64,000 nt of DNA. Origin: Streptomyces fildesensis (GTDB taxonomy: Bacteria > Actinomycetota > Actinomycetes > Streptomycetales > Streptomycetaceae). Each line of letters starts with the position of its first letter. Positions within the stretch are counted from its first letter, which is position 1. A program made the position numbers and the translations under genes. Below are positions 2,832 through 6,877 of the stretch, piece by piece. The stretch covers positions 372,001 through 436,000 of the forward strand of contig NZ_JAAIKO010000002.1 of the NCBI RefSeq assembly GCF_016107395.1, read 5' to 3'. The notes under the pieces are model-generated. The model saw nothing but the letters and a program-made list of their open reading frames with translations, was not told the origin of the DNA and did no database searches.

Positions 2832-2863
2832 AGAGGGCGGCGCCGTTGTCGGCGTCGCCCTCT
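2832..2863. terminator. Hairpin after the LAETG gene
   Basis: AGAGGGCG pairs with CGCCCTCT, continued by CGCCG/CGGCG across one G-T position, with a TTGT loop. The hairpin lies 60 nt past the stop codon of the surface protein and is followed by TACTGTTGTGTT. No long U-run, as is usual in Streptomyces. Confidence 0.65.
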
Positions 2864-2964: not shown

Positions 2965-5778
2965 ATGGACAGCGCGCTGTTCGGGGGCAGGTACGAGATC
3001 CGGGAGCTGCTCGGCTCCGGAGGCATGGCACGGGTTCATCTCGCGTACGACACCCGGCTCGGCAGGACCGTCGCCGTCAAGACCCTCCTGCCGGAACTGG
3101 CCCGGGACGCCGAGGCCCGGCGCCGCTTCGCGCGCGAGGCCCGCGCCGCCGCCGGGCTCAACCACCCCGGCATCGTCACCGTCCACGACCAGGACGAGGT
3201 GCGGACGGACGAGGGCATCGTGCCGTACCTCGTCATGGAGTACGTGGACGGCAGCACCCTCGCCGAACTGGCCCGCAGCCAGGTCAGGCTGGACATCGAT
3301 CGGGCGGTCAGGATCACCTGCGACATCCTGGACGCGCTCGCCCACGCCCACGCCCGCGGGCTGGTCCACCGGGACGTCAAACCGTCCAACGTCCTGATCA
3401 CCTCGACGGGTTCGGTCAAGGTCGCCGACTTCGGGATCGCCCGGGTCGTGCACTCGCTGACCCGGATCACCGGCACCGGATCGGCCCTCGGCACCCCCGG
3501 CTACATGTCACCGGAGCAGATCGAGGACCGCGAGGTGGACGCGCGCAGCGATCTGTACGCGGTCGGCTGCATGCTGACCGAACTGCTCACCGGCACCGTC
3601 CCGTTCCCCGGCCCGACGCCGCTCACGGTGATGTACGCGCACATCCACTCCACCCCGGAGCCGCCCTCGGCGCGGAACGCGGCGGTACCGCCCGAGCTGG
3701 ACGTGATCGTCATCTCCGCCCTCTCCAAGAACCCCGCGCTGCGCCCGCGCAGCGCGGCCGCCATGCGCGACGACCTGAACGGCTGGCTCGCGGCACCCCG
3801 GGGCGGCGCCACCCCGGCCCTGCCGCCCGCCCCCGTCCCGCGGCCGGTCGTGCCCCTGCACCCGGCCTACAACCCGCCGCACACACCGCCGCACACCCCG
3901 GTTCCGCCGCCGCTGCCGATGCCACCGGCGTCGGGGCGGCCCGGCGAGGTGTACACGTCCCAGCAGTGGGGCACGGCGCCGGTCGATCCGCGCCGCGGCA
4001 AGGGACGGCGGCGCGCCCTCATCGCTGTTTCGGCGGCCGTGGTGCTGACGCTCGGCACGGTGCTCGCGGTCCGCCTCGGCTCCTCGCACGCCCCGTCCGA
4101 GCACACCGTCACGGCCCTGGACCTGATCGGCAAGCGGACCGTCGGCCGCGGCTTCGACGGGGCGGTCAACGGCACCGTCAACCCGTCCACGGCCAAGGGC
4201 GGCACGCTCAAGCTGATGTCGTACTACGCCCCCGACTCCCTGGACCCGGCGCGCTCCTACTCACCGCTCGCCTGGAACCTGGACCGGCTCCTGCTGCGCA
4301 AGCTCGTGGACTTCGCCCCCCAGCCCAGCGGGGCGGGCGCCGAACTCGCGCCGGACCTGGCCACCACCACCGGCACGGTCAGCGACGGCGGCCTCACCTA
4401 CACGTACACCCTCAAGAAGGGCGTGACCTTCGAGGACGGCACGGCCATCACGTCCAAGGACATCAAGTACGGCATCGAGCGGACGTTCGCGACCGATCTG
4501 TTCAGCGGCGGACCCACGCATCTGCGGGACCTGCTCGACCAGGGCCAGTCCTACCCGGGCCCGTACAAGGACACCGACCCGGACCAGCTGGGCCTGAAGA
4601 GCGTGCTCACACCGGATGACAGCACCATCGTCTTCCATCTCGACGCGCCGTTCGCCGACTTCCCGTACGTGCTCGCGCTGCCGATGTCCTCGCCCGTGCC
4701 GAAGGCCAAGGACACCAAGGACAACTACGAGAAGCAGCCGGTCGCCAGCGGACCGTACAAGATCGCCTCCTACGATCGCGACAAGAAGCTGCGGCTGGTG
4801 CGCAACGACGAGTGGGACCCGGCCACCGACGGCATCCGCACGGCCCTGCCGGACGCCGTCGACTTCACGGTCGCGGCCGGCTCCGACGTGGTCGACGCCG
4901 CGCTGCTCAGCGGAGAGGCCGACCTGGACCCGGCCCAGGCCGGTGTGCAGGACGCCACCCGCACCAAGATCCTCGGCAGCGACAGCCTCAAGGCGAACGC
5001 GGACTCCGCGCTGATCGGGGCCGTCCGGTACTTCTCCCTGCAGACCGCCGTCGCACCCCTGAACGACTACCGCTGCCGCTGGGCGGTGCAGTACGCGGCG
5101 AACCGGACCGCGCTGCGCGACGCGGGCGGCGGAAAGGACGCGGGGGACGTCGCGGGCGGGATGCTGCCGCCGACGGTCGGCGGCTACGACCCGCATCTGA
5201 ACACGTACGGCACGACCGCCGGCCGCACCTATCCCGACCTCGCCAAGCGCCAGCTGTCCGACTGCGGGCACGCGTCCGGCTTCTCGACCACCATCGTCAC
5301 GGCCACCGGCAACCCCCGGACCAAGGCCATCGTGGAGAATCTGCGCACCCAGCTCGCCGCCGTCGGGATCACCGCCAAGACCGAGTACCCCGAGGCCGCG
5401 GACCTGTACGCGACGCTGCCCGACCAGAAGAAGATCAAGGAGCGTGGGTGGGGCATCATCCTCACCACCTGGCAGTCCGACTGGCCCACCCCGGCCGGCT
5501 TCCTGCGCCCGCTGCTGCTGACCGGCAGCCCGTCCAACTACGCGGCCCTCGCCGACCAGCAGCTGAAGGACCTGATGGACGAGGCCGACGCCAAGACCGA
5601 CCGGAACTCCGCCGACAGCGTCTGGCGCACCGTCGACTCCACCTCGCAGGACCGGGGCACCCTGATCCCGTTCATGTACGTGCGGCAGCTCAACTACCGC
5701 TCGGCGCGGCTGACCAACGTCTATCTCCACCCGGCGCTGGGCGGTGTGGACATCCAGGCGCTCGGCCTCAAGAACTGA
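2965..5778 (+). CDS. Transmembrane Ser/Thr protein kinase fused to an oligopeptide-type substrate-binding domain
   Basis: A 937-residue fusion. Residues about 8-270 are a PknB-like kinase: G-loop GSGGMA from 17, Lys39 (AVK), HRDVKPSN with Asp137, DFG at 155-157 and an SPEQ activation-segment end, so catalysis looks intact. A Pro-rich linker (about 280-340) leads to basic RRGKGRRR and one membrane helix (348-370). The outside part (about 405-937) is a family 5 solute-binding domain (SBP_bac_5) of oligopeptide ABC transporters, starting GGTLKLMSYYAPDSLDP. No permease or ATPase gene is adjacent, so the domain probably senses a ligand rather than feeding transport. ATG 2965 is chosen because GGGGGA precedes it and the kinase fold begins at once; the frame stays open upstream to 2827. 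It converges with cobC, overlapping by 11 nt. Confidence 0.9.
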   Translation: MDSALFGGRYEIRELLGSGGMARVHLAYDTRLGRTVAVKTLLPELARDAEARRRFAREARAAAGLNHPGIVTVHDQDEVRTDEGIVPYLVMEYVDGSTLAELARSQVRLDIDRAVRITCDILDALAHAHARGLVHRDVKPSNVLITSTGSVKVADFGIARVVHSLTRITGTGSALGTPGYMSPEQIEDREVDARSDLYAVGCMLTELLTGTVPFPGPTPLTVMYAHIHSTPEPPSARNAAVPPELDVIVISALSKNPALRPRSAAAMRDDLNGWLAAPRGGATPALPPAPVPRPVVPLHPAYNPPHTPPHTPVPPPLPMPPASGRPGEVYTSQQWGTAPVDPRRGKGRRRALIAVSAAVVLTLGTVLAVRLGSSHAPSEHTVTALDLIGKRTVGRGFDGAVNGTVNPSTAKGGTLKLMSYYAPDSLDPARSYSPLAWNLDRLLLRKLVDFAPQPSGAGAELAPDLATTTGTVSDGGLTYTYTLKKGVTFEDGTAITSKDIKYGIERTFATDLFSGGPTHLRDLLDQGQSYPGPYKDTDPDQLGLKSVLTPDDSTIVFHLDAPFADFPYVLALPMSSPVPKAKDTKDNYEKQPVASGPYKIASYDRDKKLRLVRNDEWDPATDGIRTALPDAVDFTVAAGSDVVDAALLSGEADLDPAQAGVQDATRTKILGSDSLKANADSALIGAVRYFSLQTAVAPLNDYRCRWAVQYAANRTALRDAGGGKDAGDVAGGMLPPTVGGYDPHLNTYGTTAGRTYPDLAKRQLSDCGHASGFSTTIVTATGNPRTKAIVENLRTQLAAVGITAKTEYPEAADLYATLPDQKKIKERGWGIILTTWQSDWPTPAGFLRPLLLTGSPSNYAALADQQLKDLMDEADAKTDRNSADSVWRTVDSTSQDRGTLIPFMYVRQLNYRSARLTNVYLHPALGGVDIQALGLKN

Positions 5779-6877
5779 CCGCCGGGTCCTCCGGGCTCCG
5801 TCCGCTGCGCGCCTTGGCCAGCGCTTCGACGAAGGCGTCCGTCGTGGCCGCGTCGCGGACGGCGATCCGCAGCCACCGCCCGTCGAGACCGGGGAAGGTG
5901 TCCGCGCGGCGGACCGCGAAGCCGAGGTCGCGCAGCCGCTCACGGACGGCGGCCGCGTCCTGCAGTTCGACCAGGACGAACGGCCCGGCGGGCGTGCCTG
6001 CGACCTCCAGTCCGTCGAACTCGCCCAGCCGGGCGAGCAGATACGCGCGGCAGACCGCGATCTCGGCCGCGGCCCGGTCCGCCTCCGCCAGCGCGTCCGG
6101 TGCCACACACGCCTCGATGGCGGCCAGCCCCGGCGACGAGACCGCCCACAGCGGCTGCGCGCGCTCCAGCAGGGCGATGTGCTCGGCGCCGGCGAGCACA
6201 TAGCCGATCCGCAGTCCCGCCAGCCCCCAGGTCTTGGTGAGGCTGCGCAGCACGACGAGACCGGGTACGTCACGGCGGGCGGCCAGCGAGGCGGACTCGC
6301 CGGGTACGGCGTCCATGAACGCCTCGTCGACCACCAGGGTCCGGCCGGGCCGGGCCAGCCGTGCGACCACGTCGGACGGGTGGAGTGCCGACGTCGGGTT
6401 CGTCGGATTGCCGAGCACGACGAAGTCGGCGTCCTCGGGAACGGCCGCCGGATCGAGCCGGAAACCGTCGGCGGCGTCCAGGACCACCCGGTGCACGGCG
6501 TGTCCGGCGTCGCGCAGCGCCGCCTCGGGCTCGGTGAACTGCGGGTGCACCACGACCGCGTGACGCGGTGCGAAGGCCCGCGCCAGCAGCACGAACGCCT
6601 CCGCCGCGCCCGCCGTCAGCAGCACCTCGTCCACCGGCCGGCCGTGCCGCCGGGCGACGGCGGCCCGCGCCGCCCGCCCGTCGGGATAGGCCGCCAGGCC
6701 GTCGAGCGACGCGGCGATCGTCGCCTTCAGCCAGGCCGGCGGCGTACCGGCACGGACGTTGACGGCGAGGTCGGTCAGTACCCCGCCGTCGTCGCGCACC
6801 TCGGCGTCGCCGTGGTGCCGGAGGTCGTAGCCGTCCGTGCCGCCGGCACCGGAAGTGCCGTCAGTGGGAGTGGGCAT
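5768..6877 (-). CDS. cobC: Rv2231c-family PLP-dependent protein CobC (aminotransferase/threonine-phosphate decarboxylase-like)
   Basis: 369-residue fold-type I PLP enzyme, cytoplasmic. The nucleotide-loop side helix, the NPTNPTSAL motif and the Schiff-base lysine in SLTKTWGLAGLRIGY are present, as in histidinol-phosphate aminotransferase and CobD/CobC threonine-phosphate decarboxylases. Its place as last gene of the cobalamin operon supports a role in making the aminopropanol linker or a related step, although this actinobacterial subgroup (Rv2231c type) is not, to my knowledge, biochemically settled. ATG 6877 lies 17 nt inside the end of cbiX, so translation is probably coupled. The N-terminus carries a Gly-rich stretch of about 20 residues. 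Confidence 0.85.
   Translation of the reverse strand: MPTPTDGTSGAGGTDGYDLRHHGDAEVRDDGGVLTDLAVNVRAGTPPAWLKATIAASLDGLAAYPDGRAARAAVARRHGRPVDEVLLTAGAAEAFVLLARAFAPRHAVVVHPQFTEPEAALRDAGHAVHRVVLDAADGFRLDPAAVPEDADFVVLGNPTNPTSALHPSDVVARLARPGRTLVVDEAFMDAVPGESASLAARRDVPGLVVLRSLTKTWGLAGLRIGYVLAGAEHIALLERAQPLWAVSSPGLAAIEACVAPDALAEADRAAAEIAVCRAYLLARLGEFDGLEVAGTPAGPFVLVELQDAAAVRERLRDLGFAVRRADTFPGLDGRWLRIAVRDAATTDAFVEALAKARSGRSPEDPAVSS

Follow-up and report, generated by a model that had tools for sequence, protein, structure and literature searches.

A Streptomyces fildesensis Ser/Thr kinase fused to an oligopeptide-type solute-binding ectodomain is a candidate one-chain peptide receptor

A 2005 survey, in the portion available to us, lists a Streptomyces coelicolor protein (gi|21223285) made of a kinase and a bacterial extracellular solute-binding protein (SBP) and gives it as binding Glu/Gln (PMC1262709), and according to the text consulted of a 2022 survey many SBP-signature domains serve other receptors as their sensors (PMC9602780). 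We analysed 64,000 nucleotides of the soil bacterium Streptomyces fildesensis (contig NZ_JAAIKO010000002.1, positions 372,001 to 436,000, forward strand; hereafter the window), which carry a receptor Ser/Thr kinase gene at 2965-5778. Like gi|21223285 as listed there, its product is a streptomycete Ser/Thr kinase fused to a solute-binding domain of the type used by ATP-binding cassette (ABC) importers, and with kinase, transmembrane helix and SBP-type ectodomain in a single chain it belongs with the Ser/Thr kinases having a periplasmic solute-binding sensor (PMC1262709). Unlike the Glu/Gln-type SBP of gi|21223285, which was compared by its description only, the window SBP belongs to the large, oligopeptide-type family SBP_bac_5. 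In PknG-GlnX-GlnH an outside SBP is likewise proposed to control an inside Ser/Thr kinase; according to the excerpt consulted these are three separate proteins and the SBP binds Asp/Glu, whereas the window protein is one chain (PMC6069109). PknB kinases with PASTA domains share the kinase and membrane part and differ in the ectodomain, which in the window is SBP_bac_5 instead. The nearest solved relative of this ectodomain by sequence is OppA2/Orf15 of the clavulanic acid cluster (2wok), a free protein without the kinase and without the Cys pair that the window protein has; the oppA2 gene lies in an operon gcaS-orf16-oppA2 in the section seen of PMC6382702. The most likely reading of the window gene, to which we assign a probability of roughly 0.62, is a one-chain transmembrane receptor kinase that would be gated by extracellular peptide. 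Its parts are as follows.

2965..5778, forward strand: receptor Ser/Thr kinase gene, 937 amino acids (kinase, linker, transmembrane helix, SBP_bac_5), from translation, Pfam, phmmer against PDB and orthologues
2992..3768, forward strand: Pkinase domain, residues 10-268, from Pfam and the alignment of 25 fusions
3469..3477, forward strand: activation-loop T169 and T171, from alignment to PknB and counts in the fusions
3769..4011, forward strand: proline-rich cytoplasmic linker, from the fusion alignment
4015..4071, forward strand: single transmembrane helix, residues 351-369, from hydrophobicity
4132..5769, forward strand: oligopeptide-type solute-binding ectodomain, residues 390-935, from Pfam and the match to 2wok
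5479..5481, forward strand: D839, aligned with Asp445 of Escherichia coli OppA (419 in S. enterica)
5074..5265, forward strand: span of the Cys pair, Cys704 (5074-5076) to Cys767 (5263-5265), from alignment

Translation of 2965-5778 gave one uninterrupted frame of 937 codons. Pfam matched Pkinase at residues 10-268 (E 8e-49) and SBP_bac_5 at residues 460-854 (E 4.7e-66; 223.8 bits against a cut-off of 32.4), and the latter match, running over positions 1-364 of the 368 in the profile, places the domain in that family at full length. In a phmmer comparison with the PDB, residues 7-271 matched PknB of M. tuberculosis (E 1.5e-78), and 2wok was the best match for residues 390-935 (E 7.7e-117). One strong hydrophobic stretch was found, at residues 351-369 (Kyte-Doolittle mean 2.48; best value elsewhere in the chain 1.2), and because it comes after a basic run and the proline-rich linker, the kinase would lie inside and the SBP outside. 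These results bear out the original prediction, made from the DNA alone, that a kinase, one membrane helix and a full-size SBP_bac_5 domain share one chain.

A frameshift that fuses two genes, named in that prediction as what would undo it, or a misassembly could also give such a frame, and in one orthologue (L154, G023:C2:1653000-1667000) kinase and SBP indeed stand in two overlapping frames, perhaps through a sequencing error or through real decay. In the genus sample, comprising 35 genomes searched with the SBP domain as query and then subjected to domain checks, an intact fused frame was nevertheless present in 25 (L017, Streptomyces sp. PH10-H1, and G021 are probably one assembly and were counted once), with identity to the window protein going down to 50% and a mean column identity of 60% over the whole chain. 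Apart from the split copy in G023, two genomes (G016 and G032) have a contig end inside the gene, and seven (G002, G009, G012, G013, G015, G022 and G034) gave no SBP match at 1e-125 or a free SBP only. The GC content at third codon positions was 0.92-0.96 in kinase, linker and SBP alike. Over 935 codons the window gene differs from its orthologue in L017 at 65 first, 53 second and 161 third codon positions, and the third-position excess was seen in all three parts of the gene. By the 25 fused frames, the even third-position GC content and the codon-position pattern the artefact was ruled out, its remaining probability being practically negligible.

The ectodomain keeps a residue of peptide docking. 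D839 aligns with Asp445 of E. coli OppA and Asp436 of DppA, and NikA has Pro at that position; in OppA this Asp bonds the amine of the first residue of the ligand, according to the part consulted of PMC5736914. The amine-binding Asp of Opp/Dpp peptide-binding proteins is thus present in the window protein, and the same Asp was found in all 41 fused rows of this SBP subfamily (a split copy and two cut copies included, the plasmid type described below excluded), in a fusion to a caspase-like domain, in 46/46 near free relatives and in 8/9 distant free SBPs. Near and distant relatives were divided by identity (at least 37% versus at most 35%), a split which was not blind, as the Cys pattern had already been seen in five of these rows. 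In the window lineage neither the docking Asp nor the docking Trp varies (25/25 fusions, and 30/30 rows of a larger alignment). Since D839 is invariant and equivalent to the amine-holding Asp of OppA, the sensor has probably remained a receptor for peptides. The available text of the 2022 survey predicts that SBP_bac_5 members bind peptides almost exclusively (PMC9602780). The nearest free paralogue in the same genome is flanked by permease genes of the OppC and OppB types, after which come an ATPase of the oligopeptide type and an M1 aminopeptidase, and the four other free relatives that were checked all lie directly downstream of an OppC-type permease gene. The Cys pair (704, 767) was present in the 41 fused rows, the caspase row and the 46 near free relatives, and in none of the 9 distant free SBPs, nor in OppA, DppA and NikA in the larger alignment; this distribution marks a distinct SBP subfamily, and the two residues possibly form a disulfide.

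Some observations weigh against a peptide sensor. SBP_bac_5 also includes nickel and other non-peptide binders, and a nickel-binding SBP family matches the window protein at E 4.4e-13. Structure prediction of the ectodomain (two sequences) reached a mean predicted local distance difference test (pLDDT) score of 32 and a predicted template modelling (pTM) score of 0.28, and the model was not used. Moreover, the plasmid-type fusions (L261, L262) are without the WxxD docking motif, its Trp and Asp being replaced, which means that a fused SBP ectodomain need not bind peptides. The window ectodomain could in the same way have given up ligand binding and serve as a dimerisation or cell-wall-contact module of a kinase that answers another signal, and the scanned neighbours include no importer gene, which would suit this explanation; we consider it unlikely, given the invariant Asp and Trp of the window lineage and the 60% mean column identity of the whole chain. 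Of the original prediction, a kinase with an oligopeptide-type outer sensor stands firmly, given its architecture, conservation, catalytic residues and docking Asp, and the direct reading of peptides that was also suggested there is kept as a conditional part.

The kinase half belongs to the Hanks-type Ser/Thr kinases of the PknB group and has all catalytic motifs: G19, G20, K39, E58, HRD (135-137), K139, N142, DFG (155-157) and E184 were found in 25/25 rows of the fusion alignment. T169 is kept in 25/25 and T171 in 21/25, and both align with the Thr pair of PknB, which we take to be activation-loop Thr. R9 (kept in 23/23 rows with a letter), D75 (25/25) and L32 (L in 8 and M in 17 of the 25) align with residues presumed by us to form the back-to-back dimer interface of PknB, for which the literature search gave no confirmation. 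The linker is variable, with the exception of an HPAY motif (residues 299-302, nucleotides 3859-3870) invariant in 25/25 fusions. The NCBIfam PknB_PASTA model (NF033483) covers residues 5-389 at 385.7 bits, under its cut-off of 450, and Pfam gave no PASTA match in the window protein, which accordingly falls outside the Stk1/PknB PASTA kinases. The genome holds 54 Pkinase rows, and among 30 kinase loci of these compared by BLAST the nearest was the PASTA kinase L169 at 52%, two others being at 51-52%; a kinase tree also grouped the window type with L169 (support 91, below the starred level). The window kinase thus has the look of a PknB-type kinase in which another ectodomain has taken the place of PASTA. 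When 11 other kinases of the genome were scanned, 2 carried PASTA, 1 PQQ, 1 TPR and 1 MFS domains, and 6 were without a named sensor domain, so the earlier statement that most membrane kinases of this group carry PASTA or beta-propeller sensors was confirmed only in part. Two of the genome's kinases have other partners in one frame, namely a full MFS_1 transporter (L196:1336-3765 on C470, 810 amino acids) and TPR repeats (L175:148-2403 on C204, 751 amino acids).

From these two halves we infer a peptide ligand, a dimer mechanism and targets as follows. The outer SBP_bac_5 domain would bind a peptide outside the cell, or a peptide-like compound whose amino group is free, and would shut like a flytrap, altering the pairing of receptors in the membrane. 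The inner PknB-type kinase domains would thereby be brought together or re-oriented and phosphorylate each other on the activation loop (T169/T171), and the activated domains would then phosphorylate target proteins. Such a receptor may have originated by fusion of a PknB-like kinase, together with its membrane anchor, to an SBP taken from a peptide importer of the Opp/Dpp type.

The surroundings of the gene in the window are the following.

2832..2863, forward strand: terminator-like hairpin with a weak T tail between the SCO1860-type gene and the kinase gene, from the hairpin score
1581..2771, forward strand: left neighbour, SCO1860-family LAETG-anchored surface protein, a syntenic flank, from family match
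5768..6877, reverse strand: right neighbour, cobC-type aminotransferase, convergent, a syntenic flank, from family match

In orthologues that were fetched with their start included, an M stands at the place of 2965 or only a few residues away, and together with the hairpin, which was scored against shuffles with a mean of 0.0, this places the start at 2965 in preference to another ATG of the same frame at 2827. At its 3′ end the gene shares 11 bases with the convergent cobC. The scanned neighbours are an amidohydrolase and the SCO1860-type LAETG protein on one side and cobC-, cbiX- and cbiC-type genes on the other, in line with the earlier remark that no transporter genes stand beside the kinase. 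With its SBP C-terminal to a kinase and transmembrane helix in one chain and such non-transporter neighbours, the protein does not qualify as the substrate-binding protein of an ABC importer. It could still double as an importer part, passing its ligand to a distant Opp permease besides signalling, as free relatives serve importers and importers are present in a genome with 15 other SBP_bac_5 matches (one partial); the tethering of the SBP domain to the kinase and the non-transporter neighbours (scanned in the window; permeases were not searched for at the other syntenic loci) speak against such a double role, to which we give the smallest share among the alternative functions of the ectodomain.

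The adjoining cobC-, cbiX- and cbiC-type genes, together with the weak match of nickel-binding SBP models, would fit an ectodomain that binds a non-peptide solute, e.g., a nickel/cobalt chelate or a corrinoid. Synteny was compared among genomes with and without the receptor. All 16 genus loci with flanks contain cobC, and 15 each contain the SCO1860-type gene and the amidohydrolase; the fusion was located between the SCO1860-type gene and cobC in 15/16; in G025 and G007 about 2 kb of other sequence separates it from cobC. Two genomes of another genus also carry the window-type fusion, between cobC- and SCO1860-type genes in G055 and between cbiX- and amidohydrolase-type genes in G041. Among the 7 genomes of the genus that lack the receptor, 5 have the SCO1860-type gene and cobC side by side, with a gap of about 85-151 bases between their ends in G002, G009, G013 and G034 and with overlapping frames in G012. 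G022 gave no SCO1860-type match, and in G015 the contig ends. No kinase or SBP match at 1e-10 was detected in 20 cobC-flanking regions of genomes without a window-type receptor (7 from the genus and 13 from other genera of the family). As cobC adjoins the SCO1860-type gene without any receptor, this neighbourhood is independent of it, and a cobalamin-linked function was judged unlikely. A non-peptide ligand is also hard to reconcile with the Asp that the window lineage keeps and NikA is without, and with the Opp/Dpp-type gene sets, one including an aminopeptidase, around the checked free relatives; we regard it as quite improbable, only a little less so than the double role in import.

Fusions of the same kind were collected from 394 genomes of the family and 394 of the class using the SBP-domain protein as query, at an E limit of 1e-125 with the best 3 candidates per genome in a family search and at 1e-110 in a class search, and the counts are lower bounds. 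The window type occurs in at least 28 genus genomes (split and cut copies included) and in 2 outside the genus. A second kinase type on the same SBP subfamily (type 2) was found in at least 6 genomes of genus code g14, a third (type 3) in at least 3 of g9, and a fourth (type 4; class search, by BLAST) in at least 2 of g80. The Pfam check covered the window protein, L108, L130, L133, L135, L146, L261 and L262, which includes three of the nine type 2 and type 3 fusions; the others were assigned by BLAST to the two halves. A long open frame alone was not taken as a sign of fusion, and each was checked: 20 long frames of the family search (at least 845 amino acids) comprised 11 kinase fusions, 1 caspase fusion and 8 resembling ordinary lipoprotein SBPs with the frame running on upstream, and 14 long frames of the class search included 2 kinase fusions.

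The caspase fusion (L144:613-4074, G300:C1, reverse strand, in a g9 genome) has caspase, proline-rich linker, transmembrane-like stretch and SBP_bac_5 in one frame. Its caspase part is of the EACC1-associated type (NF047832, 148.8 bits against a cut-off of 140), with the Pfam caspase model under its cut-off, and the His-Gly that we take to be usual in caspases is not evident by eye; by these matches it is a predicted receptor with a caspase-like inner domain. Among 3059 matching plasmid records two, both from Streptomyces, span 80% or more of the query: WP_168720682.1 (NZ_CP016083.1) and WP_329468636.1 (NZ_CP109497.1). Like the window gene they hold Pkinase and SBP_bac_5 in a single coding sequence, annotated in both cases as an (ABC transporter) substrate-binding protein; they differ from it in having another SBP subfamily, without the Cys pair and with the docking motif lost. 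Because the searches started from the SBP subfamily of the window, fusions of other subfamilies are under-sampled. Viral contigs were searched for SBP relatives as well, and none were found. A 1744-residue frame (L251:565-5799, G561:C532, reverse strand) resembles by eye an M16-type peptidase, judging from what we take to be its HLFEH motif, followed by an SBP; it may be a chance read-through, a fusion or a misassembly.

The origins of the fusions were examined with quick trees bearing Shimodaira-Hasegawa-like approximate likelihood-ratio (SH-aLRT) support only, for which long branches that meet call for caution, the caspase row L144 being such a branch. L001, L003 and L015 (too distant) and identical duplicates were dropped from the SBP tree, and later trees including the plasmid type (type 5) used chosen subsets of 48 kinase and 45 SBP rows. 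Explaining the free label on the SBP tree takes 4 changes, each of them forced by starred branches and one being the caspase row, and 5 once the plasmid type is included. On the kinase tree the fusions fell into four separate groups, types 2 and 3 lying in starred clades with own-genome kinases lacking an SBP and the window type clustering with such kinases at the support of 91 given above. A single clade of all fusions was rejected on both the SBP tree (approximately unbiased test, p-AU 1.5e-7) and the kinase tree (p 1e-97); the other clade pairs tested were picked after the trees were seen. The SBPs of types 2 and 3 are sisters (support 98), yet a joint kinase clade was rejected (p 2e-41), which suggests that partner exchange took place. 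One SBP clade of the window type with types 2 and 3 was rejected only weakly (p 0.032), and for the window type with type 5 a clade was not rejected on the kinase tree (p 0.063) and was rejected on the SBP tree (p 0.0005). These patterns suggest that bacteria built such kinase-SBP hybrids more than once.

The original prediction had allowed that the domain pair might already be broadly described with a known ligand. Among the matches listed in the open-licence literature searched, no description of a kinase and SBP_bac_5 in one chain was found, and one paper naming both families has them, in the part seen, in a table of separate protein families; but the close Glu/Gln-type analogue is in print, as listed in the portion of the 2005 survey cited above (PMC1262709). 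It seems, then, that the combination of a kinase with a solute-binding sensor is already known and that the oligopeptide-type variant is undescribed in the literature searched. For most bacterial Ser/Thr kinases the input signal is not known, which the excerpt consulted of PMC6069109 also names as an outstanding question; in vitro screens can be run for ligands of the sensor class to which the window protein belongs, so that the input of this kinase would be directly testable. A broader reading, which we hold tentatively and at somewhat less than even odds, is that Actinobacteria repeatedly made peptide-importer SBPs into receptor sensors, mostly of Ser/Thr kinases and at least once of a caspase-like protein, with peptides gating phosphorylation or proteolysis. 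If true, these would be a bacterial counterpart of peptide-receptor kinases, and the peptides could be the organisms' own signals, cell-wall fragments or peptides of rivals. Such receptors would then be partly hidden, since genes can be named after one half only, and the two plasmid genes are examples of receptors concealed by an automatic name. That this sensor class was apparently joined repeatedly to kinases of different types, and in one case to a caspase-like domain, would also point to a route from nutrient-uptake parts to receptors.

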